Assembly: GCA_030537295.1 (NCBI GenBank)
Contig: JAUNNU010000019.1
Location: 1 to 33,475 of the forward strand
Source: Bacteroidia bacterium
GTDB lineage: Bacteria; Bacteroidota; Bacteroidia; Bacteroidales; F082
Length of the DNA stretch: 33,475 nucleotides
Direction of reading: 5' to 3'
This document shows positions 5,460 to 28,495 of the stretch, piece by piece. The stretch's first letter is position 1. Each line of letters starts with the position of its first letter. The notes beneath the pieces are model-generated. The model was not told the DNA's origin. It did no database searches and saw nothing but the letters and a program-made list of their open reading frames with translations. Both the position numbers and the translations under genes were made by a program.

Positions 5460-7196
5460 CTAATACACTTTCAGCTTGTCGCCGGTCTGCTCGATGATCG
5501 CCTTATAGAACTCATCGCTGTATTTCGGCTGCTCGACTTTCGGAGCGTAATATTTGTACCCTTCGGGTTTTTTCTGAGCCGTCTTGACATTTCCGTCCAT
5601 GTATTTCACGAAGAGGTGTCTGTAGAACATCTTCCAGTCGGCGCAGAGGTTCTCGGCTGCCGAATTTGAATATTGCATGAGGTTTTTCATGACACCTTTT
5701 TCGCCTTCAGTCTCGTAAATTCCGACAAATTTTTCCCTGAAAGCGGCTGTCTCCTTAATCCACATTCCTTCATAATAGTCTTGTTTTTCAGCTATTTCCG
5801 GATGGATATAATCGTATTTCGTGTAAGCGAAATTTGAAACCTGATTGAAGATCCAGAAAGCGGCCGTCTCCGAATATTCCATCATTGAGCCGTTGCCTTC
5901 GCGGAAGCAGAGCGGGATTTCTGTCATCGTCGTGTACATCGGGCAATATACGGTGCTTGCCGCGTCATCGACGCCGAACCAGATGATGCCGCCCATTCCG
6001 GGGATGTTCTGGCTGTTGCTCTGCGTGACGAACGAGAAGCCGGTCTGCTGTGTGGCCGTCGTCCTCTCGTGGCAGTAAGCCTGTCCGTCAACCTCGAAAT
6101 CCATCGGGCGCCAGCGGTACGGGCAGTGGAAAGGGCCTGCGCCGAGGTCAACAGACATGTCGAGTTCGGTGCCTTCGAGGTGGTCGCGCATGAAGTTCAT
6201 CATATCGCGGACGCTCACCTTCTCCTTCGGGAGAACCCAGAGAGGCATTCTGTTTGAAGGGAAGTTCTCGACTGTCTGCGGCTGTCCTTTGACGTACGGC
6301 TTCGCGCGTTTGATGTCGCGTCCGGTGGCATAGTCCCAATAGGCGTCCATACCGTCGGCGACTTTGTTGAACATCGCCCATACGCGGAGGTCGCAGCCAC
6401 GTGCGCCGCTGAAATCAACGGGAGCGTAAACGTCTGAGAATGAGAAGTCTTCGTCTTTTCCGACATAAAGATTATTAGCTTTTGCGAAGGAGATGACATC
6501 TTCGGCATAGATGCAATCGACTTTCTTGTTTGTCATGAACTTGTCGAAGTCCTTAGAGGTGAGGACGTTCTTGCCTTTAAGCGGGAAAGTCTGGATGCGT
6601 GCCTGGTTAGCGTGGCCGCTGACATATCCGTCGGGGATGCGGCGTGCGACCCACACCATGCCTTTGCCGAACTTGCCTTTGCCGATCACTTCCATGATCC
6701 AGACCTCTTCGGTGTCGGCGATGGAGAACGACTCGCCTTCGCTGATGTAGCCGTATTGCGCGGTGAGTTCGGCGATGTTACGGATGGCTTCGCGAGCCGT
6801 CTTGCAACGCTGCAACGAGATGTAAATCAACGTGCCGTAGTCCATCAGGCCTTCGCCTTCCCAGAGACATTCGAGGCCGCCGTAAGTCGTTTCACCGATG
6901 GCGAGCTGCCATTCGTTCATATTGCCGACAACGTTATAAGTATGACGGACTTCCGGAATCTGACCGAGGTAACGGCCGCTGTCCCAGTCGTAAAGGTCAC
7001 GCATCGCGCCTTCAGGGTAATCGGCTGCCGGATAATGATACAACTCGCCGTAAAGTACGTGAGAATCAGCGGCATACGAAATCATTGTCGAACCATCAGC
7101 CGATGCACCTTTGGTGATGAGGAAGTTGGTGCAGGCATTAACCTTAACTGTTGAGAAAAGGCAGATAATTGTGATTAATGCTAAGAGTTTTTTCAT
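5460..7196 (-). CDS. Secreted dipeptidase, peptidase family C69 (PepD type)
   Basis: A 578-residue Ntn-hydrolase of family C69, which cleaves dipeptides and releases amino acids. After the signal peptide (about residues 1-21, ending VNA) the mature protein begins directly with CTNF, placing Cys22 as the exposed N-terminal nucleophile expected for this family. Supporting segments are GASADGSTMISYAADSH (30-46), NEWQLAIGETT (about 94-104) and the dipeptidase segments EGESFSIADTEEVWIMEV and GYVSGHANQARI. Length agrees with bacterial C69 enzymes. The start overlaps the stop of ribF by ATGA (7193-7196), so it is probably translated from the asd-ribF message. Location periplasmic or extracellular; no T9SS tail is present. 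Confidence 0.93.
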   Translation of the reverse strand: MKKLLALITIICLFSTVKVNACTNFLITKGASADGSTMISYAADSHVLYGELYHYPAADYPEGAMRDLYDWDSGRYLGQIPEVRHTYNVVGNMNEWQLAIGETTYGGLECLWEGEGLMDYGTLIYISLQRCKTAREAIRNIAELTAQYGYISEGESFSIADTEEVWIMEVIGKGKFGKGMVWVARRIPDGYVSGHANQARIQTFPLKGKNVLTSKDFDKFMTNKKVDCIYAEDVISFAKANNLYVGKDEDFSFSDVYAPVDFSGARGCDLRVWAMFNKVADGMDAYWDYATGRDIKRAKPYVKGQPQTVENFPSNRMPLWVLPKEKVSVRDMMNFMRDHLEGTELDMSVDLGAGPFHCPYRWRPMDFEVDGQAYCHERTTATQQTGFSFVTQSNSQNIPGMGGIIWFGVDDAASTVYCPMYTTMTEIPLCFREGNGSMMEYSETAAFWIFNQVSNFAYTKYDYIHPEIAEKQDYYEGMWIKETAAFREKFVGIYETEGEKGVMKNLMQYSNSAAENLCADWKMFYRHLFVKYMDGNVKTAQKKPEGYKYYAPKVEQPKYSDEFYKAIIEQTGDKLKVY

Positions 7197-20025: not shown

Positions 20026-20451
20026 TTATTTATTAGATACACTGGCGGACAAAACTTTTAAAGAAAAATTAAATTTCTTTTTTGGTGGATTGACTTTACA
20101 TCTGAATGGAGTTTTGGCAGACTTTACAATACCATTAAAAGTAACAATTTCATTTTTAAGTAAAATACCATTTTTTGATTCGTATGATATTTGTATTACA
20201 ACATTACTATAATTTACGTATGACGCAATACTTGAAATTTCAGCATTCATTTCGTATTCATCATCTGAAAAAAGATGCGTTTCTTTAACACCTATTTCAC
20301 CATTTACTTTAATATAATTCTGAACCTTTAATGCTTCTTCAGACTTGATTTTTTCAATGCGTTGTTGTTCTTCGGCTTGTTTGTTTTCTTCAATTTGTCC
20401 ACAGCCTACAAGAAAAACAAGGCCGACACACAACAATAATAATTTCTTCAT
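20026..20451 (-). CDS. Small lipoprotein next to C10 protease (141 aa), candidate inhibitor
   Basis: The signal peptide MKKLLLLCVGLVFLVGCGQI has the lipobox LVGC (Cys17). A charged helical segment (about 20-50, Glu/Lys/Gln-rich) follows. The remaining about 90 residues look like a small beta-rich domain (VVIQISYESKNGILLKNEIV, FNFSLKVLSASVSNK). No family recognised. It begins 14 nt after the stop of the C10 protease gene and shares its terminator, so the two are one transcript. In streptococci and in some Bacteroides, C10 proteases are paired with a small inhibitor gene; this position would fit such a role, but no sequence similarity to the protease propeptide is visible, so the function is inferred from context only. 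Confidence 0.75.
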   Translation of the reverse strand: MKKLLLLCVGLVFLVGCGQIEENKQAEEQQRIEKIKSEEALKVQNYIKVNGEIGVKETHLFSDDEYEMNAEISSIASYVNYSNVVIQISYESKNGILLKNEIVTFNGIVKSAKTPFRCKVNPPKKKFNFSLKVLSASVSNK

Positions 20452-20465
20452 GATAATTTGATTTT

Positions 20466-23087
20466 TTATTTAACAATAATTTTTTTTGTGATAATCTCAT
20501 CTTTTAAAACAAGTTTCATAATATAGCTGCCACTTTGCATGTCATCTAATGAAACCGTATATGTTCTACTTTGATTTTCAATATTTTCACTTCGGACCAA
20601 TTTTCCTGTGATGTCAAACAACGACATTTCTCTAATTTCTCCATGATTTTCAGGAATTTCAATATTCACAAAATCTCTTGCTGGATTTGGATAAATACTG
20701 ATTTCTGAAAGATTGTTTTCATCAACAGATGTTATTGGCGACCGTGCCAATGATAACGAAAGCAAATATGTTCCCGTCATTCCTGAATAATAAGGTGAGA
20801 CAACAAAATATACAGTGACAGGACCATCTATTGTAATATTCCCACTCATCACATCATCATAAGTGGTTGAATAGTTATTACCATTTACTGAATATGAAAA
20901 CATTGCATCGATGGTGTAGTTTTGCCCATTTCCACTATTATATGAATCGTGCAATCTCGGAGTAATTGTATAACCATAACCTGCTGGCAATACTACCTTA
21001 TAATAGTCAATATCATTACCAACATGAATATTGGAACCTGACGTGCTTGCCGTTGCATGATTGTTTGACCAATTCAATATTAGGCTTCTCGCCTGACTTT
21101 GAATGTTGTTTGTTTCGTACGAATCTGGATTTAAAGGAGCAGCCTCAACAACAATTATTATTGGATTACAATAATCTGATGCTCCTGCATAATACCATGA
21201 ATTTGAACCACTTTCCTTATATACAACTGACATATGATATGTTCCTGGTCCTGCCGTTATATTTCCTGTGAAATTTAAACCGTTAGTATAGTGATAGTTA
21301 TATTGCAGCCCATCTATATCTTTAATTTGGATTGTTTGTACAAAACTTCCATCCAAATTTGACAAGGACACCCTAACCTGGCCATAAAAAGTACTGTAAT
21401 CTGTATTCAATATATCAACATTAACCGTGGCGGATTTTCCTTGTATTAGCCTCCCTCCATTGGTTGTAATTGTAAAATCAGAGTTCACTTCTATGTCAGA
21501 GTAGTAATAGATATCAAAATCTTCAAGATTGTAATAATTGCCGTCGTCAACAATTATCCAACTTTCATTGTTTGATGTGGCATAAAAAATTGCAACCATA
21601 TAATAACCAGGAACAAATACCATGCTGCCAGGATTCGTAAATGCCAAATTTTTATACATTCCTGCTTGAATTGATGTTGAACCTTTTAGTATATAATCAA
21701 CAAAATAACCATTTTCATCAAACACAGCCGCACACACATAACCATTAAAATCACTATTTCCATAATTTGCAATACTAACTATAGCCTCAATCTCATCGCC
21801 AAACCATATTTCATCATCAATATTGATGTTTGAATAAAGTCTTAAATCGTATGATGGTGGATTTGAATTATCTGGTTCAATTCCAAAAATTGCTTGTTGA
21901 TTACTAGTGAAGCTATACGAACCTCCACCTGCACCACCACTGCCTGGATTCAGTGCCGACAATGAAAAGTATCCGTCATTTTGTCCACTCCAACCCCAAT
22001 TAAAGTGAAAATAATTGTTATTGTCATAACCATCGCATACAAAACAATGTCCACCACCTGTTCCACAACCACAGTATATTATCGGTTTTGATGAATTTAG
22101 ATCTGTCTTTAGTTTATTTATCCATACATTATTCGTATAATTGTCTTTACACAAACCTTGTAATGTATTTTTATATCCAAAATACGTTTTCAGAGCATAT
22201 TCAGCACAATTTTGGATTGGACTATCACTTGAAATTACATAAGCTCCACTACCTCCAAGACTACCTAAACCATAATCCATATTAACACTGACTCCACAAT
22301 GATACATTAATGTAGCTACCGCTTCTTTTTGAACAGAACTACTCGAAGAAGTCAATTTATTAGGCATATGACTCCAATCGTAATATGTCGCACCAAAGTT
22401 GGCAGATTGTGTGCCATACCAAAATGAATTATATGAATGATATCCAGTACCTTTAACAGGAAAATTCCAATATTTCATAACTTGAGCCATCGCAGTTGCA
22501 ACACAACCAGTAACCGTGCGCTCATTAGCCAAGATATTGTATGGACAAAATTGATTATAATAAGGACTCTGGTCCCACTGTGTTGTAAGCAGTGGTCCAA
22601 CACTTGCTCCAGACCTATTATCAAATTCGGTTGATATTCCATTTTCCAATTCATCCCACTGAAATGCAGTTTTTTCATCAGCTACAACATCATTGTCAAG
22701 TCCGAATTGAATTTCACGATTATAGCCAGACAGCCATTCTTTCATGTTGATGGGAATGCTGTCGATTTTAATGTTTCCCACATTTGAATAACCAAGAACA
22801 GGAATGAAACGGTCATCATCAGAAATAATAACCCAACCTTGGTTGTCATTCAAATTAAACATGTAAAAATGATTATTCTCTGAGAATCGTTCAGTATCAA
22901 CTTGCTTAAGTTCAATGTTTTTGAACAATTTAAGATTTTTGCCTTTAGATGTTGTGAACGTCTTTTTCTGAATAATAAAATTCTTAGCAACTTGACTGGC
23001 TTTTTCAGCCGTCACATGTTCTGCGGACAGATTACTTTGCATGGATGTAACCAGCAATGCAAGTAATAACAATCTAATCTCTCTCAT
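20466..23087 (-). CDS. C10 family (streptopain-type) cysteine protease with T9SS sorting domain
   Basis: An 873-residue secreted cysteine protease. Signal peptide about 1-22; inhibitory propeptide about 23-160 (starts VTAEKASQVAKNFI, contains GWVIISDDDRFIPVLGYS as in the Spi/streptopain prodomain). The catalytic domain is about 161-415, with the nucleophile Cys195 in VTGCVATAMAQVMKYW, His347 in GGGHCFVCDGY and the conserved NWGWSGQNDGYFSL (363-376). Two or three beta-sandwich domains (about 420-640) and a pre-peptidase C-terminal-like segment (about 660-775) follow. The tail (ISIYPNPARDFVNIEIPENH...IIVK) is a T9SS type A sorting domain. It is probably activated by propeptide removal and degrades host or dietary protein outside the cell. 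Co-transcribed with the lipoprotein downstream and preceded by a structured leader (23131-23345). Confidence 0.94.
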   Translation of the reverse strand: MREIRLLLLALLVTSMQSNLSAEHVTAEKASQVAKNFIIQKKTFTTSKGKNLKLFKNIELKQVDTERFSENNHFYMFNLNDNQGWVIISDDDRFIPVLGYSNVGNIKIDSIPINMKEWLSGYNREIQFGLDNDVVADEKTAFQWDELENGISTEFDNRSGASVGPLLTTQWDQSPYYNQFCPYNILANERTVTGCVATAMAQVMKYWNFPVKGTGYHSYNSFWYGTQSANFGATYYDWSHMPNKLTSSSSSVQKEAVATLMYHCGVSVNMDYGLGSLGGSGAYVISSDSPIQNCAEYALKTYFGYKNTLQGLCKDNYTNNVWINKLKTDLNSSKPIIYCGCGTGGGHCFVCDGYDNNNYFHFNWGWSGQNDGYFSLSALNPGSGGAGGGSYSFTSNQQAIFGIEPDNSNPPSYDLRLYSNINIDDEIWFGDEIEAIVSIANYGNSDFNGYVCAAVFDENGYFVDYILKGSTSIQAGMYKNLAFTNPGSMVFVPGYYMVAIFYATSNNESWIIVDDGNYYNLEDFDIYYYSDIEVNSDFTITTNGGRLIQGKSATVNVDILNTDYSTFYGQVRVSLSNLDGSFVQTIQIKDIDGLQYNYHYTNGLNFTGNITAGPGTYHMSVVYKESGSNSWYYAGASDYCNPIIIVVEAAPLNPDSYETNNIQSQARSLILNWSNNHATASTSGSNIHVGNDIDYYKVVLPAGYGYTITPRLHDSYNSGNGQNYTIDAMFSYSVNGNNYSTTYDDVMSGNITIDGPVTVYFVVSPYYSGMTGTYLLSLSLARSPITSVDENNLSEISIYPNPARDFVNIEIPENHGEIREMSLFDITGKLVRSENIENQSRTYTVSLDDMQSGSYIMKLVLKDEIITKKIIVK

Positions 23088-23130: not shown

Positions 23131-23345
23131 TAAAAAAACCGTGAAACTTTTTGTTTAACACTGAGGCTCTGGTAAACCTAACTACAAAACAAGAAAGCTC
23201 ACGGTAAAACCGCAAGCGTTTCAACTTCCTTGTGTAGTTATAATTGAAATTTACCAGATTTCAGTGTTACAAAGCAAAGCAAAAACGCCTTATTTATTTA
23301 TGTCTTTATTTTTTAAAATTCTCTTTTTCTTAATTCAATTTTTCA
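23131..23345 (-). ncRNA. Structured leader / candidate transcription attenuator of the C10 protease operon
   Basis: Read on the minus strand from the promoter at 23351-23383. After an A-rich start, bases 23268-23229 can pair in blocks with 23193-23157: AACACTGA/TCAGTGTT, a 9-bp TCTGGTAAA/TTTACCAGA block, AACTAC/GTAGTT and ACAAG/CTTGT. This gives a long imperfect hairpin (structure A). Alternatively 23205-23187 pairs with 23156-23138 (7+4+6 bp blocks, ACCGTGA/TCACGGT at the base), giving a terminator stem directly followed by T7 (structure B). The loop of B (23157-23186) is almost exactly the 3' half of A, so A and B cannot both form. That is the geometry of an antiterminator/terminator switch about 45 nt before the protease ATG. 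It could instead be a free-standing small RNA ending at the U-tract. No riboswitch or Rfam class recognised. Confidence 0.6.
23132..23205 (-). terminator. Terminator hairpin inside the protease leader
   Basis: Stem 23187-23205 with 23138-23156 (17 pairs with one bulge and one small internal loop), 30-nt loop, then a run of seven T on the minus strand. It lies upstream of the C10 gene, so it must be conditional or leaky, or else define an independent small RNA. Confidence 0.6.
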
Positions 23346-23350
23346 AGTCG

Positions 23351-23383
23351 CAAATGTAGCAATATTTTTTAATAATCCACAAA
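23351..23383 (-). promoter_or_regulatory. Consensus Bacteroidota promoter of the C10 leader
   Basis: On the minus strand: TTTG (-33, at 23380-23383), 21-nt spacer, TACATTTG (-7, at 23351-23358). This is the best two-part match in the window. It reads toward the C10 protease gene 264 nt away and lies just beyond the stop of the DUF3990 cassette. Confidence 0.75.
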
Positions 23384-23392
23384 GGAAATTTT

Positions 23393-23623
23393 CTAAATCA
23401 AATATATTTTATTTTCACCTGAAAGTTCCTCTTCCAGAACTTCATAATTGTAATCAGCACTTTGAATATACAAACCCGTTTCTGTGTCTATGATTTTCTT
23501 ATAAGTTTCAGAGTTATATAGAATATTGAGGGCTTCCTGTATGGAAACATTCTTGTTTTCTATGATAAGATTCACAACGCCCGACAGCAATGTGTCAGTT
23601 ATGAAAATTTGTTCTTTACTCAT
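23393..23623 (-). CDS. Small helical protein of DUF3990 cassette (76 aa)
   Basis: Not firmly recognised. It is a 76-residue, mostly helical acidic protein (QEALNILYNSETYKKIIDTE, then TGLYIQSADYNYEVLEEELS). The pattern of an alpha-helical N-terminus followed by a NSETYxxIxDxxTGLY motif recalls small proteins that accompany DUF3990 genes, possibly DUF3791-like. No signal peptide, so cytoplasmic. The ATG overlaps the stop of the DUF3990 gene (23620-23623, ATGA), so translation is coupled. A partner or antitoxin role is inferred from this arrangement only. Confidence 0.75.
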   Translation of the reverse strand: MSKEQIFITDTLLSGVVNLIIENKNVSIQEALNILYNSETYKKIIDTETGLYIQSADYNYEVLEEELSGENKIYLI

Positions 23624-24099
23624 AACACTTGAAGTTTTGAGATTGCTTTTTCCGTGCCAAAGAAATACTGGTCATTCAAATCACGCCAGCGAAGTGCCTC
23701 AACCAATTGGTTCATACTAATTAGATTCATCTCGTACAAATCCAATTGCTGGACGACGCCGTCATCTGCTATTGGACCAATTACGATGTCGTAATCATGG
23801 TGAAAACCAGTCCTTGATGCCTTACGGTTTTTAAGGATAAATTCTGCCCATTCTGCACTCACTTCAGTAAACTGTTTAATCTTCAACTTATTGGATAACA
23901 ATACGGAATTATCAAAATAGAATTCTGTTACAACAGGATTTGTTCCTAAATATTGTTTTGCCTTTCTCTTCGCCATCTCCTCTGCTTGACTTTTGACGGT
24001 TGTCAAGTAAAATCCCTTCCCAAAATCTTTGTTGATACGTCCTTTTGACAAATCGATTTTTTCAATCTTTATATTTGAACCGTGGTACAATTTAAGCAT
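23620..24099 (-). CDS. DUF3990 domain protein, ADP-ribosyltransferase-like
   Basis: A 159-residue cytoplasmic protein covering a whole DUF3990 domain. Family features: LYHGSNIKIEKIDLSKGR (4-21, with His6), DFGKGFYLTT (25-34, Tyr31) and the following helix QAEEMAKRKA, DIVIGPIADDGV in the middle, and QYFFGTEKAISKL (144-156, Glu150). His, Tyr and Glu at these places resemble the H-Y-E triad of the diphtheria-toxin/PARP-type ADP-ribosyltransferase fold, so it may transfer ADP-ribose to a protein or nucleic acid. It overlaps both neighbours (8 nt with the DUF3791-like gene upstream, 4 nt with the small gene downstream), the layout of a toxin-antitoxin operon. Activity is inferred. Confidence 0.85.
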   Translation of the reverse strand: MLKLYHGSNIKIEKIDLSKGRINKDFGKGFYLTTVKSQAEEMAKRKAKQYLGTNPVVTEFYFDNSVLLSNKLKIKQFTEVSAEWAEFILKNRKASRTGFHHDYDIVIGPIADDGVVQQLDLYEMNLISMNQLVEALRWRDLNDQYFFGTEKAISKLQVL

Positions 24100-24533: not shown

Positions 24534-27119
24534 CTATTCCTTCACAAATTTCCTTGTCACAACCTGTCCGCCAATGAAACTGACCATATAGACACCTGAA
24601 GGAAGGTCTTCGATATCGATTGTCGTCTCGCCTTCAAAAACGAAGTTGCGGATTTCCTGACCCTGCATGTTCAAGATGTGACAGCAGATACGACCTTTAT
24701 CGTAATTCGTTGAAAGTCTTAATGTTGACTTTGCAGGATTTGGTCTCATGCTGACCTCAAACGGGTCGTTGTGGTCAATCAAGGTAGGAACATCATCAAC
24801 CACTGCGATGCTGTTGCTGTAGCTGACGACGGCACCTGACAACCTTAATATCGGGTTGTCGGCGGCACTGCAATTCGGGCAGTTGTTCTGGCCGTTCACA
24901 CAGTCAGGATAGTTAGGATGGCATTGGTCGATGTATGTCGGATCGAACTGATAGAAAATGTTTGCATTTCCGTTGCCGACATATTCGCTGAGGTCGAAAT
25001 CCCAAACCATACCCATTGAACCCGGGCACCATCCTGAACGTTCGTATGTCCATGTGCCGTTCTGCGGCTGGCAGCCGTAAGGGTTAGGATTGCATGTCAA
25101 CCAGTTGTGCTGGTCATATTTCTTTGTTCCGTTGACATAAACATGATGTGTGTTATTGCTGAATTCAGCTGCGTTGTCGGTGTTGTATGCGCCGTTGGTG
25201 CCGCTGCTCCAGTTGTGACCTGTGGTGATAACCTTCAAGTTTGCCTTCTGTGTCCCATCAGGGAATGTGTAATTGATTTCAGGAACTGGCTGTTGATTTG
25301 CATAATCGCCAAAATCGTAGATACCGAACCATAACTCATTCATATCCACATATTTATATTCCGGAGTTCCTTTCGTATAGCTGAAAGTGGCGATAGGGGC
25401 ATAACCGTTGCCGCTCCATGTCTGGAAATAAAGTTCGAACTCAACGAGACCCTGAAGCAATGTCGTGTAGTCTGTGACGTCGAGGTCGGCTTCGCATTCC
25501 ACACCGAACGGAGCGATGTAACGGAAGAGTTCAACCCATTCGCCACGGTAGTTCTTCACGCGGCAATAACCGACACGGTCATACGGGTCGCAACCGCCGA
25601 CACACTGATGCTGATAATTCAATCTGATGTCGTTGAAAGCGTTGACGTGTGAAGGGAATACATATTCAGCTGTGTTTGTCTGCTGATTCGGTGTCACCAC
25701 GAGGTCGCCGTTAAAAGCGGTCACTTCAATATTGTTATATTCGTTAGTAACTGTAAATGAATTATTTGCAGTTGTTGTCTTTCCTCCGCTCTGTGTGATG
25801 GAAGCCGTCATGTCGAAGCTGCCGTAAGATGTCGGAGTCCATGTCGTGTACCAATAACCGTTTGAAGGATCGTCAGGATAAGCCGTTGAAAGTTCCATTG
25901 TCTCGCCGTTGATTGACATTGTAACGTCTTCAAATTTGATGGCATCGCCGTGTTCGATGTATGCACTGAGAACAAGGAGAATCGGGTCGTTCAATGTAGG
26001 TGCATAGACTGTCGTGCCGTTATAAGGGCGGCGGATTGTTATTTCCGGAGTGTATGCATCCGGGTCAACGACTTCGAATGTACGTGTTACTGACGGAGCC
26101 GGTTGCCAGTTTGCGTCGCCTTCTTGAACAGCTTTCACTTTCACCACGCCCGGAGTGCCATTGAGTGTCAATGTGTTTCCGTTGACTGAAGCAGGACCTG
26201 AAACGACTTCAAAACTTACAGGAAGTCCTGATGAAGCGGTCGCCACAAGTTGTATCGGGGAAGCTGATGTCAGTTTGTCTGAAATCGCCTGAAAATCAAT
26301 AAACTGTGAAGCGAGTCCGGCTGGAATTGTACGAAGTACGAAGTTGTCGTAACCTGCATGGCTGCTGTTGAGGAAGAACACGCCGTCCCACATCGCCGGG
26401 TCGAAGCGGTCACCTGAACCTGGAGTAAGTCCGCAGTTGACACCTTGGATTTCAGGAACCGGCTGGAACTCGCCTGAACATTCCGGATCAATAAACATTG
26501 AAACGCTGCCCTGACCGTTGTTGGCTTCGAGGTCAATCATCATTTTCCAGCGCATCCAACCATCGTAATCGTAGTCATAATCAACAGCTAAAGTATTGTT
26601 AGGCAACACTATACCATTGATAAAGCGATCATCGTTAGTATTGTTATACGTTGTGGTGAACCAGATACCGCCGTCCTGTGTGGGAAGGTTCGGGTTCGGT
26701 TTCGTTGTTTCATAACTCATCGGAGGGAGCACCGAGCCGTCGCCGTCAGCGTCGTAGCCGACACCGAACACTGTTCCCCAGTAGTTACGATACATGTCAA
26801 TTTCGATTTCGATTGTACCGCCTTGTGAGAAATCGAAATTCCAGCCGTTGGTGGCTTTGTGTGTGGCAATCTCACCGAAATTTGTATTGGCAGCATCGAA
26901 GAATACGCCGAGTGTCTCGTCAGGCGTTGTAGTGCCGTCGCCGCCGACATATTCGATTTTCAGCACGCCGCCGCCAGCACTGTGTTTCACAGCTTTCCAA
27001 CCGCCCTGGCCGTTGAAAGTGCCTTCCGTGTAACTGTTGAAATCATCTGTGATCTCAACCTGCGCAAAAAGTCCCAGACTTGTGAGCGCAATAAGCAAGA
27101 ATAAAGATAATTTTTTCAT
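24534..27119 (-). CDS. PNGase F-like glycan amidase with T9SS sorting domain (861 aa)
   Basis: Signal peptide MKKLSLFLLIALTSLGLFAQ. N-terminal lectin/jelly-roll-like domain (about 21-265), a Big/MBG-like beta domain (about 270-352), an Ig-like domain (about 358-460), then a region matching both halves of peptide-N-glycosidase F (about 480-770): CVGGCDPYDRVGY (506-518), GEWVELFRYIAPFGV, LDVTDYTTLL, ELYFQTW (562-568), NAAEF (649-653), NPYGCQPQNGTWTYERSGWC (679-698). By alignment from memory, Asp514 and Glu652 match catalytic Asp60 and Glu206 of PNGase F, while Glu118 is replaced by Gln566. The C-terminal RPNPAKSTLRL...FVKE is a type A sorting domain. It probably removes N-glycans from glycoproteins outside the cell, if active. 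The ATG at 27119 gives the signal peptide; the longer frame does not. It starts 26 nt after lutB. Confidence 0.85.
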   Translation of the reverse strand: MKKLSLFLLIALTSLGLFAQVEITDDFNSYTEGTFNGQGGWKAVKHSAGGGVLKIEYVGGDGTTTPDETLGVFFDAANTNFGEIATHKATNGWNFDFSQGGTIEIEIDMYRNYWGTVFGVGYDADGDGSVLPPMSYETTKPNPNLPTQDGGIWFTTTYNNTNDDRFINGIVLPNNTLAVDYDYDYDGWMRWKMMIDLEANNGQGSVSMFIDPECSGEFQPVPEIQGVNCGLTPGSGDRFDPAMWDGVFFLNSSHAGYDNFVLRTIPAGLASQFIDFQAISDKLTSASPIQLVATASSGLPVSFEVVSGPASVNGNTLTLNGTPGVVKVKAVQEGDANWQPAPSVTRTFEVVDPDAYTPEITIRRPYNGTTVYAPTLNDPILLVLSAYIEHGDAIKFEDVTMSINGETMELSTAYPDDPSNGYWYTTWTPTSYGSFDMTASITQSGGKTTTANNSFTVTNEYNNIEVTAFNGDLVVTPNQQTNTAEYVFPSHVNAFNDIRLNYQHQCVGGCDPYDRVGYCRVKNYRGEWVELFRYIAPFGVECEADLDVTDYTTLLQGLVEFELYFQTWSGNGYAPIATFSYTKGTPEYKYVDMNELWFGIYDFGDYANQQPVPEINYTFPDGTQKANLKVITTGHNWSSGTNGAYNTDNAAEFSNNTHHVYVNGTKKYDQHNWLTCNPNPYGCQPQNGTWTYERSGWCPGSMGMVWDFDLSEYVGNGNANIFYQFDPTYIDQCHPNYPDCVNGQNNCPNCSAADNPILRLSGAVVSYSNSIAVVDDVPTLIDHNDPFEVSMRPNPAKSTLRLSTNYDKGRICCHILNMQGQEIRNFVFEGETTIDIEDLPSGVYMVSFIGGQVVTRKFVKE

Positions 27120-27145
27120 TGTTTGAATTTTGTTGTTTATAATTA

Positions 27146-28495
27146 TTATTCTTTTATACCATTCGCTTCTTTCCAAAGTTGTGAAAATGTCTTCTCCGCA
27201 AAAACAGGAACAGCACGTTTCAAACCCCAGTTTTTCTTCATCAACTGCTTGTATTGCAAGTTGTTAAGAATATTGTTCTTATCCATTGCCTTTCTGTTTT
27301 CAACTTTTTTTATCATGAAATTGAAAATATTTCTCTCATCAATCAACGAATCATTTTCTCTAACGATGTCCATTCTGTTGCGAAGAATCAAATCGCTTAT
27401 CTTTATGTTGATTGGGCAAATCTCATCGCATTGATGACATGAGGTGCAGAGCGTCGCAAAATGTGAAGCCTTTTCAAAACCATCCGTAATTGGCTTAACC
27501 ACTGTCCCGACTGGTCCCGGAACCGCCATTTCATAAACGTGTCCGCCTATTGTATTGAAAATAGGACATATATTGTTACATGCGCCGCACTCAATACACG
27601 TGAAAATCTGCCGCTGATACTCTTTTTCGAGAATGTCAGAGCGTCCGTTGTCAACCAAAATCAAAAAATCAGGTTTGTTTACAACAGTGTAAACCGCTGA
27701 CACTCTGTTCTTTGAAACTTCAAAAATCGATGAAAGCGGCAACAACTTTGACATATCTTCGAGTGAAGCCACCAATTTGTCAATGCCTGTCAAGACGATG
27801 TGTTTTTTCGCTGACGCTATGGACTTCAAGACGTTTCCTTCATCTTCCGAAAAGACAACGCTGCCTGTGTCTGAAGTTATGAAATTAGCTCCAGTAATGG
27901 CAAATTCTGCATCTATATATTTATTTTTCAATACTTTACGCACGACTGTCATAAGCTGCTTCGGTTTCAGGTTCTGCTGCACTGAAAACTTTTCAACGAA
28001 ACGTTCAGAAATCTCATTATACGAAACATGTGCCGCCGAATGCTGCGGGTCGGAAGGACGCTCGTTTTCGGCATAGCAAATAAAATCGCCTGAATCTGTT
28101 TCAGTTACGTTCATTTTCTTCATCTCTAAATATGAAAGCAAACCTATCTCTTCGGCGACATTATTCTTCGTCTTGATGACATTTTTAGCCTTTTCCTTGC
28201 TGATGATTTCAAAAATCATTTGTTTAGCCTCTTCAGCGTCTTTTGCCCATTTCACGACAACTCCGTTGGCAACACAGTTGGTCTCAAAATCAACCAAAAG
28301 TTTGTCGTAATTTCTGAAAGTCTTGTTGCGGATGTTGAAAGCCCTTGATTTTTCAAGTTCAAAATCAGAGTAATGACTTGCGCGGTTTTTTGCGACCATC
28401 TTGAAAAAGTCGTAACGTGATTCCATCTTACGAAGGAAATCATTATCATTTACCATACGGTCAACGTTTTGCTTAAAAACCGAACTTTCCGCCAT
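27146..28495 (-). CDS. lutB: LutB-type lactate utilization iron-sulfur protein
   Basis: A 449-residue cytoplasmic protein with an N-terminal LUD domain and two 4Fe-4S clusters: C300/C303/C306/C310 in CIECGACNNICP and C350/C353/C356/C360 in CTSCHQCDEICP. The tail after residue about 380 (DUF3390-like, KNWGLKRAVPVF) is as in LutB/YkgF. In other bacteria LutABC oxidise L-lactate to pyruvate. Here lutA and lutC are not adjacent; the neighbours are rpiB (63 nt upstream) and the PNGase F-like gene (26 nt downstream). It may act with LutA/LutC encoded elsewhere or in another redox complex. Confidence 0.9.
   Translation of the reverse strand: MAESSVFKQNVDRMVNDNDFLRKMESRYDFFKMVAKNRASHYSDFELEKSRAFNIRNKTFRNYDKLLVDFETNCVANGVVVKWAKDAEEAKQMIFEIISKEKAKNVIKTKNNVAEEIGLLSYLEMKKMNVTETDSGDFICYAENERPSDPQHSAAHVSYNEISERFVEKFSVQQNLKPKQLMTVVRKVLKNKYIDAEFAITGANFITSDTGSVVFSEDEGNVLKSIASAKKHIVLTGIDKLVASLEDMSKLLPLSSIFEVSKNRVSAVYTVVNKPDFLILVDNGRSDILEKEYQRQIFTCIECGACNNICPIFNTIGGHVYEMAVPGPVGTVVKPITDGFEKASHFATLCTSCHQCDEICPINIKISDLILRNRMDIVRENDSLIDERNIFNFMIKKVENRKAMDKNNILNNLQYKQLMKKNWGLKRAVPVFAEKTFSQLWKEANGIKE

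Follow-up and report, generated by a model that had tools for sequence, protein, structure and literature searches.

To our knowledge, the cis-acting RNAs described from Bacteroidia are few, and it is poorly understood how this class sets the expression of its many accessory genes. The closest described systems are the trp-type attenuators, in which four segments pair as 1:2, 2:3 and 3:4 and an intrinsic terminator precedes the first gene; we group the Bacteroid-trp RNA (RF01692) with them. The leader element described here is built likewise. However, it has no leader peptide over segment 1, is not tied to amino-acid genes and has no Rfam match. In T-boxes and terminator-antiterminator riboswitches, two folds also compete for one strand, with premature termination upstream of the gene, but the element has no such match at gathering score and its genes are not linked to one metabolite. 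UpxY and LoaP leaders belong to surface or accessory operons on which a NusG-like protein acts. As far as is known, these leaders are locus-specific or simple hairpins, whereas the element is one two-state family found at many loci.

Flavo-1 (RF01705), the DUF805 RNA (RF03081), 6S-flavo (RF01685) and Bacteroidales-1 (RF01693) are structured RNAs as well, none of which matched the element in the scanned copies. Table 1 of PMC2864571 lists Flavo-1, 6S-flavo and Bacteroidales-1, and not the DUF805 RNA, for Bacteroidetes or Bacteroidales. In Flavobacterium psychrophilum, 64 structured 5' regions have been described, some of them conserved and without Rfam matches (PMC9723704, main text). No description of the family was found in the literature covered, which included the main-text parts of PMC9723704, PMC7366714, PMC11109978, PMC2864571 and PMC8040213; supplements were outside this scope, and an unnamed listing is possible, for example among the Bacteroidetes candidates of PMC8040213. 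PMC2965389 did not contain the terms that were sought.

We consider it very probable that the element is a cis-acting transcription attenuator that works without a leader peptide, and that its leader serves as a portable cassette. As far as can be told, it represents a new family of portable, multi-copy attenuators free of leader peptides.

The leader of the C10 peptidase gene

The starting point was a leader in the window, by which we mean the whole stretch of 33,475 nt that was analysed. Positions 23131-23291 (minus strand) are one member of a multi-copy RNA family, whose copies have in common a two-state fold of about 160 nt, and lie upstream of a C10 protease gene. An earlier note on this DNA had proposed a promoter, a leader of about 260 nt and two mutually exclusive folds, A (antiterminator) and B (terminator), controlling a C10 operon. 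The promoter boxes are present as described, the upstream one TTTG and the downstream one TACATTTG, which we take to follow the consensus of the Bacteroidota-type -7 box. If transcription is assumed to start near 23346, the leader measures about 259 nt up to the ATG at 23087. The parts are as follows.

23380-23383, minus strand: -33 promoter box TTTG, 21 nt from the -7 box
23351-23358, minus strand: -7 promoter box TACATTTG, Bacteroidota type
23131-23291, minus strand: whole conserved RNA element, from segment 1 to the U-run (151.3 bits with model R1, 133 bits with model R2)
23276-23291, minus strand: small 5' hairpin of the ON fold, sharing part of segment 1
23269-23289, minus strand: segment 1, pairing with segment 2 in the OFF fold
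23262-23268, minus strand: P1 5' strand, base of the antiterminator (both-sided changes in 7/7 P1 pairs)
23246-23262, minus strand: hairpin H1 (GAAA..UUUC), with the P2 5' strand in its loop; nearly invariant, with no two-sided changes
23250-23258, minus strand: P2 5' strand (both-sided changes in 7/7 P2 pairs)
23233-23239, minus strand: P3 5' strand (from the alignment fold and the covariation scan)
23215-23233, minus strand: segment 2, consisting of the P4 5' strand and the bulge GAAACGCU
23210-23217, minus strand: P5 5' strand, GCUUGCGG (three-strand covariation)
23187-23204, minus strand: segment 3, the shared strand, whose partner is the P5 5' strand and segment 2 (antiterminator) or segment 4 (terminator)
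23180-23186, minus strand: P3 3' strand
23164-23179, minus strand: hairpin H2 (AGGY..RCCU), inside the terminator loop; the H2 loop holds the P2 3' strand (23168-23176)
23157-23163, minus strand: P1 3' strand
23139-23156, minus strand: segment 4, the 3' arm of the terminator
23131-23138, minus strand: U-run of the intrinsic terminator
20466-23087, minus strand: downstream C10 peptidase gene, 873 aa, with an I69 propeptide and a T9SS sorting tail
20026-20451, minus strand: second gene, 141 aa, without a Pfam match

Structure A was found where it had been placed (23262-23268 with 23157-23163, 23250-23258 with 23168-23176, 23233-23239 with 23180-23186, and inner helices). Structure B, in which 23187-23204 pairs with 23139-23156 and seven T follow, was also recovered, and no linker separates the 3' end of A at 23157 from the 3' arm of B at 23156, as had been said. 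All three regions are more stable than shuffled sequence: none of 200 shuffles was as stable as the leader (z -4.46), the terminator (z -5.53) or the antiterminator region alone (z -6.33).

The window contains no tRNA genes. Upstream of the leader, positions 23620-24099 encode a DUF3990 protein with weak similarity to the ADP-ribosyltransferases of polyvalent proteins. Also near the C10 protease gene, positions 24534-27176 encode a secreted protein with a peptide-N-glycosidase F C-terminal domain and a T9SS sorting tail.

A multi-copy RNA family in Bacteroidia

A search with the leader in 60 genomes of the window's genus retrieved many related leaders, several per genome in a number of cases, and a profile run on the first 60 fetched loci gave 62 matches. 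The seed alignment consisted of 45 distinct, full-length, strong copies. RNAalifold predicted 38 pairs in it, with both-sided changes in 23. Every seed copy (45/45) has a strong terminator hairpin (-20.0 to -28.6 kcal/mol), which runs directly into a U-rich end in 44 of the 45, the exception being L019. The locus survey started from 231 model matches in fetched loci, which were reduced to 201 without duplicates and 197 distinct copies. At least six T in eight positions occurred at the place of the U-run in 189 of the 197 copies, compared with 23 of 197 at random upstream places.

Model R1 detected the element in 93 of 99 genomes of the genus (E 1e-3), in 67 of 173 genomes of the family, confined to two of 16 genera (1e-8), and in 99 of 393 genomes and 64 of 206 genera of the order (1e-6). 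Model R2, built from 49 diverse copies, detected it in 69 of 295 genomes of the class at 1e-7, 63 of them outside the order Bacteroidales, and in 20 of 198 genomes of a phylum sample at 1e-6, 16 of them within the class. The E-values of R1 and R2 are rough, and since 7 to 30 candidates were scored per genome, these counts are lower bounds. The element thus occurs through Bacteroidales and in other orders of the class. Elsewhere in the phylum there were four weak matches (52-62 bits), which were not relied on as members outside the class. Deeper scoring of 15 hand-picked genomes, most of them rich in copies, gave 5 to 32 copies each, and the window's own genome has 12.

At gathering score, Rfam 15 gave no match in the whole window or in 20 of the 60 divergent loci from the order. 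A relaxed search of the leader returned six low matches, the best being WsnRNA46 on the other strand (19.6 bits, E 0.24), and a relaxed search of 11 loci from the class gave no match over the element. An identity with 6S or Bacteroidales-1 RNA was rejected by these searches. The proposed switch had been open to refutation by a hit to a known free-standing RNA, and none of the known families gave a match in the scanned copies. Near some copies there are Flavo-1 and DUF805 RNAs, which do not overlap the element. DUF805 (RF03081) and DUF805b (RF02914) RNAs were seen in two loci carrying the element (L243, 1091-1156, and L223, 3016-3050). In L243 the DUF805 RNA starts 126 nt 3' of the element and before the next gene, forming a tandem of two candidate cis-regulatory RNAs.

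Covariation in both folds

In an unbiased covariation scan of the 49-copy alignment, the top 14 column pairs all belonged to P1, P2, P3 or the terminator, with others mixing in below; the terminator pair 104-188 ranked eighth among all column pairs (z 12.7). The 25 pairs of the ON fold were paired in 93.5% of cells, compared with 73.9% in shuffles, a value that none of 500 shuffles reached, while slid versions of the fold gave 29-45%. All 14 pairs of P1 and P2 showed both-sided changes. In further pair types, 12 of 500 shuffles equalled the ON fold. Across H1, H2 and the terminator, 89.7% of cells pair, compared with 85.6% in shuffles. Cells with two-sided changes in the OFF fold numbered 39, compared with 14.7 in shuffles, and the number of OFF-fold pairs with two-sided changes was not above shuffles (318 of 500 reach it). 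Within H2, the Y-R pair covaries (T-A 132, C-G 38, T-G 13 and C-A 3 in 186 parsed copies, with 11 of the 197 unparsed).

The shared strand was followed through triples, each consisting of a base that extends both P5 and the terminator, together with its two partners. Among 169 parsed copies, G-C-G occurred 113 times, A-U-A 13, C-G-C 13 and U-A-U twice; all four middle bases were seen, and the triple paired both ways in 149 copies and one way in 20. The remaining 28 of the 197 distinct copies were unparsed, five of them ending in GAAGCCCAC, which by eye looks like a different terminator arm. These covariation counts are not independent events because the copies share descent. The middle strand covaries with both partners, which, with the ranking of P1, P2, P3 and the terminator in the scan, supports the mutually exclusive layout that had been proposed; a lack of covariation among relatives had been named as a ground for dropping it. 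The comparison of copies supports the view that selection acts on each of the two pairings open to this strand.

Promoter and position before genes

The exact -7 box TANNTTTG was found 40-120 nt upstream of 152 of 195 copies, compared with a mean of 7 (maximum 16) in base-shuffled controls and 19 on the other strand. TTTG preceded the exact -7 box by 17-23 nt in 58 of the 195. Between the U-run and the ATG, the window has no exact -7 box, and 11 of 167 copies have one; a separate promoter for the C10 gene in this interval, which would have spoken against the switch, was therefore not seen by sequence. A short ATG ORF over segment 1 was present in four of 195 copies, and leader-peptide attenuation of the trp type was ruled out on this count.

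Some ORF of at least 40 aa starts within 300 nt downstream in 189 of 201 copies. The gap from the element to the first ORF has a median of 44 nt and measures 30-79 nt in 118 of the 189, most commonly 40-49 nt. Within 120 nt downstream, 142 of 180 copies have the start of a same-strand ORF of 100 aa or more, compared with nine of 180 in the mirror test. The earlier note had offered as an alternative an independent small RNA, which would be about 215 nt long, end at the terminator and act in trans. We regard this as very unlikely: an upstream promoter, a strong terminator and multiple copies would all suit such an RNA, but the same-strand ORFs and the preferred gap disfavour it, and a plain terminator needs no covarying antiterminator strand.

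Placement between promoter and gene, a strand shared by two folds and selection on both pairings are the marks of a transcription attenuator, and comparative sequence supports each of them here, along with the helices of both states, the terminator and the position before genes. The element would probably decide whether each downstream gene is read.

Genes behind the element

The 189 first ORFs fall into 75 clusters and have no function in common. Seventy-one of the 75 cluster representatives, cut at 620 aa, were scanned; those omitted were one of 331 aa and three that were short or truncated. HKD-Snf2 proteins (46 loci) together with restriction-modification proteins of types I, II, IIG, III and IV account for 74 of the 189 loci; loci were assigned by cluster representative only, and 46 of the 74 represent one gene family, mostly from one genus. 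One of the clusters counted here (six loci) matches methyltransferase models only weakly. Models from PADLOC were met by first-gene proteins (167 families, 71 proteins) and also by upstream control proteins (109 families, 70 proteins), so part of the defence signal reflects the neighbourhood; among the 25 control families listed, methyltransferase models match one protein each. Since the survey grew from the window copy, the gene proportions are not an unbiased sample.

Outside the defence genes, a signal-peptide-like start, scored by a simple rule, was found in 67 of 115 first ORFs, compared with 35 of 153 upstream control ORFs. The secreted-looking products include BspA-type LRR proteins, C10 peptidases and proteins with lipoprotein-like starts, and a second C10 peptidase lies behind a copy in another family (L228). 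In other orders, TonB-dependent receptors follow copies at long gaps (226-272 nt), and type II and III methyltransferases are among the first genes. Eight of the 11 other copies in the window's genome were read. They precede genes for a C5 cytosine methylase (gap 50 nt), an IetA-like ATPase (63), an HTH protein (52), a LytTR protein (137), two membrane proteins (21), a 94-aa ORF (129) and ACP synthase III (254). A switch before the C10 operon is supported, but not its restriction to C10 genes: the element is portable and stands before many unrelated genes. Two copies in the window's genome (L291 and L292) precede very similar multi-pass membrane proteins that by eye resemble MBOAT acyltransferases; one cut piece of these was scanned and gave no Pfam match.

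With no function in common, the genes do not point to any ligand. A riboswitch, in which a small molecule would bind the P1-P2-P3 domain with its conserved internal loops, would be a special case of the attenuator, and its compact conserved domain and long-range pairing coupled to an expression platform would fit. However, the 75 clusters share no pathway that would point to one metabolite, and no Rfam riboswitch matched at gathering score; we consider this version unlikely.

Predicted folding order and proposed mechanism

It had been claimed that structure A forms first during transcription. This was not borne out: folding of the growing window transcript places a hairpin between about 23269-23289 and 23215-23233 (segments 1 and 2) before A. 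At 132-148 nt this hairpin has the lowest energy of all folds; P5 is first seen at 148 nt, and P4, P3, P2 and P1 displace the hairpin from 156 nt. The predicted order is thus segment 1:2, followed by A. Taken alone, the window copy of the hairpin is mildly more stable than shuffles (z -1.94; 10 of 200 as stable). In the copies inspected (three of them printed), forcing the terminator made the 5' half form a long hairpin, in which segments 1 and 2 pair with each other and enclose H1. Among 39 representatives (less than about 72% similar) from 180 parsed copies, segment 1 pairs better with its own segment 2 (mean -18.2 kcal/mol) than with foreign ones (-14.6), and none of 20,000 permutations was as good (p 5e-5). 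When the region between the segments served as the partner, own and foreign did not differ (-5.7 and -6.0). By this comparison, there is a third alternative helix, between segments 1 and 2, that the earlier note had missed.

In 153 of the 162 copies that were computed, forcing P5 gave a more stable fold than forcing the terminator, with a mean difference of 9.8 kcal/mol. At equilibrium the gene would therefore nearly always be on, so that termination would be set by kinetics or by a factor holding the 1:2 form.

In the mechanism that we propose, RNA polymerase would start at the upstream promoter, and segments 1 and 2 would pair first, with H1 inside, an order predicted from folding only. In the ON state, segment 3 would invade segment 2 and zip up P5, P4, P3, P2 and P1 into the antiterminator. 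In the OFF state, it would stay free until segment 4 emerges, whereupon the terminator hairpin would form in front of the U-run. A trans-acting signal, which may be a protein, a ligand or an RNA that holds segment 1:2 and H1 or hinders zipping, would set the ratio of the two.

A fixed attenuator would do without such a signal: with kinetic competition at a constant ratio, costly genes would be expressed weakly, or variably from cell to cell. This is possible, although we lean against it. Many conserved residues do belong to one of the competing helices, the downstream genes lack a common function, and the terminator is conserved although the ON fold is more stable. However, H1 (GAAA/UUUC), H2 (GG/CC) and segment 1 are more constant than pairing alone would require, which suggests that something recognizes them.

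With a regulated attenuator, all copies in one cell may answer to the same signal, and the regulon may join virus-defence and surface genes. Taken furthest, one ancient RNA switch would define a class-wide regulon of Bacteroidia, in which a single signal, acting on up to dozens of copies per genome, governs TonB-dependent receptors, secreted proteins and defence genes, including those for restriction-modification of types I to IV; we advance this tentatively and with some doubt. If it is true, defence against viruses and the surface exposed to them would be switched together by transcription attenuation, and the nascent RNA would be reading a new signal, be it the state of the polymerase, a second messenger or a protein. 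A family that reaches 32 copies in a genome, has no match in Rfam and stands before genes for restriction enzymes, further defence functions and surface proteins would make a large RNA regulon. Both the signal behind polymerase read-through and a joint response of defence and surface genes become testable, and the portable leader may serve as a tool to measure or set expression in gut bacteria.

Cassette boundaries and possible movement between genomes

Copies before unrelated genes resemble one another within sharp limits. For pairs at least 75% identical whose downstream genes belong to different clusters, the BLAST match starts at a median of -10 nt (5% at -73) and ends at the end of the element (median 0 nt, 5-95% -56 to +29), a few of these pairs stemming from a wrongly picked ORF (e.g. 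those with L221). In same-gene pairs, by contrast, the match continues to a median of +281 nt, with the flank cut at 300 nt. The copies L062 and L167 are 93.7% identical, yet the ORFs behind them belong to different clusters. Similarity that typically stops at the terminator suggests that the leader acts as a portable cassette, and the start of the match suggests that the promoter lies mostly outside the shared block. Some copies are found no more than about 700 nt from a contig end (e.g. on the G345, G188 and G242 contigs), which suggests that repeats beside the elements break the assemblies.

A selfish or mobile repeat that had landed before genes by chance could account for many copies per genome, cassette-like boundaries, copies near contig ends, and helicase and nuclease neighbours. 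Such a mix is treated as a sign of mobile repeats in one ncRNA pipeline (PMC11109978, main text). Nevertheless, the promoter, the orientation, the gap to the start codon and the two-state covariation argue against chance insertion, and we judge it very unlikely; an attenuator with a portable leader is the reading we prefer. The patchy spread of the family suggests horizontal movement. A DNA-similarity search of plasmid and phage collections retrieved one plasmid and one partial phage match (29% of the query), and the window copy as the query gave no match in the plasmid collection. A Chryseobacterium shandongense plasmid (NZ_CP033916.1, L289) carries a copy at 93.7 bits, and a viral contig (IMGVR_UViG_3300001686_000010, L288) carries a good one at 859-1021 (113.6 bits). 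On the plasmid, a 120-aa ORF at 6189-6551, absent from the record's gene table, begins 41 nt past the end of the element. The copy on the viral contig directly precedes a small protein with a signal-peptide-like start.
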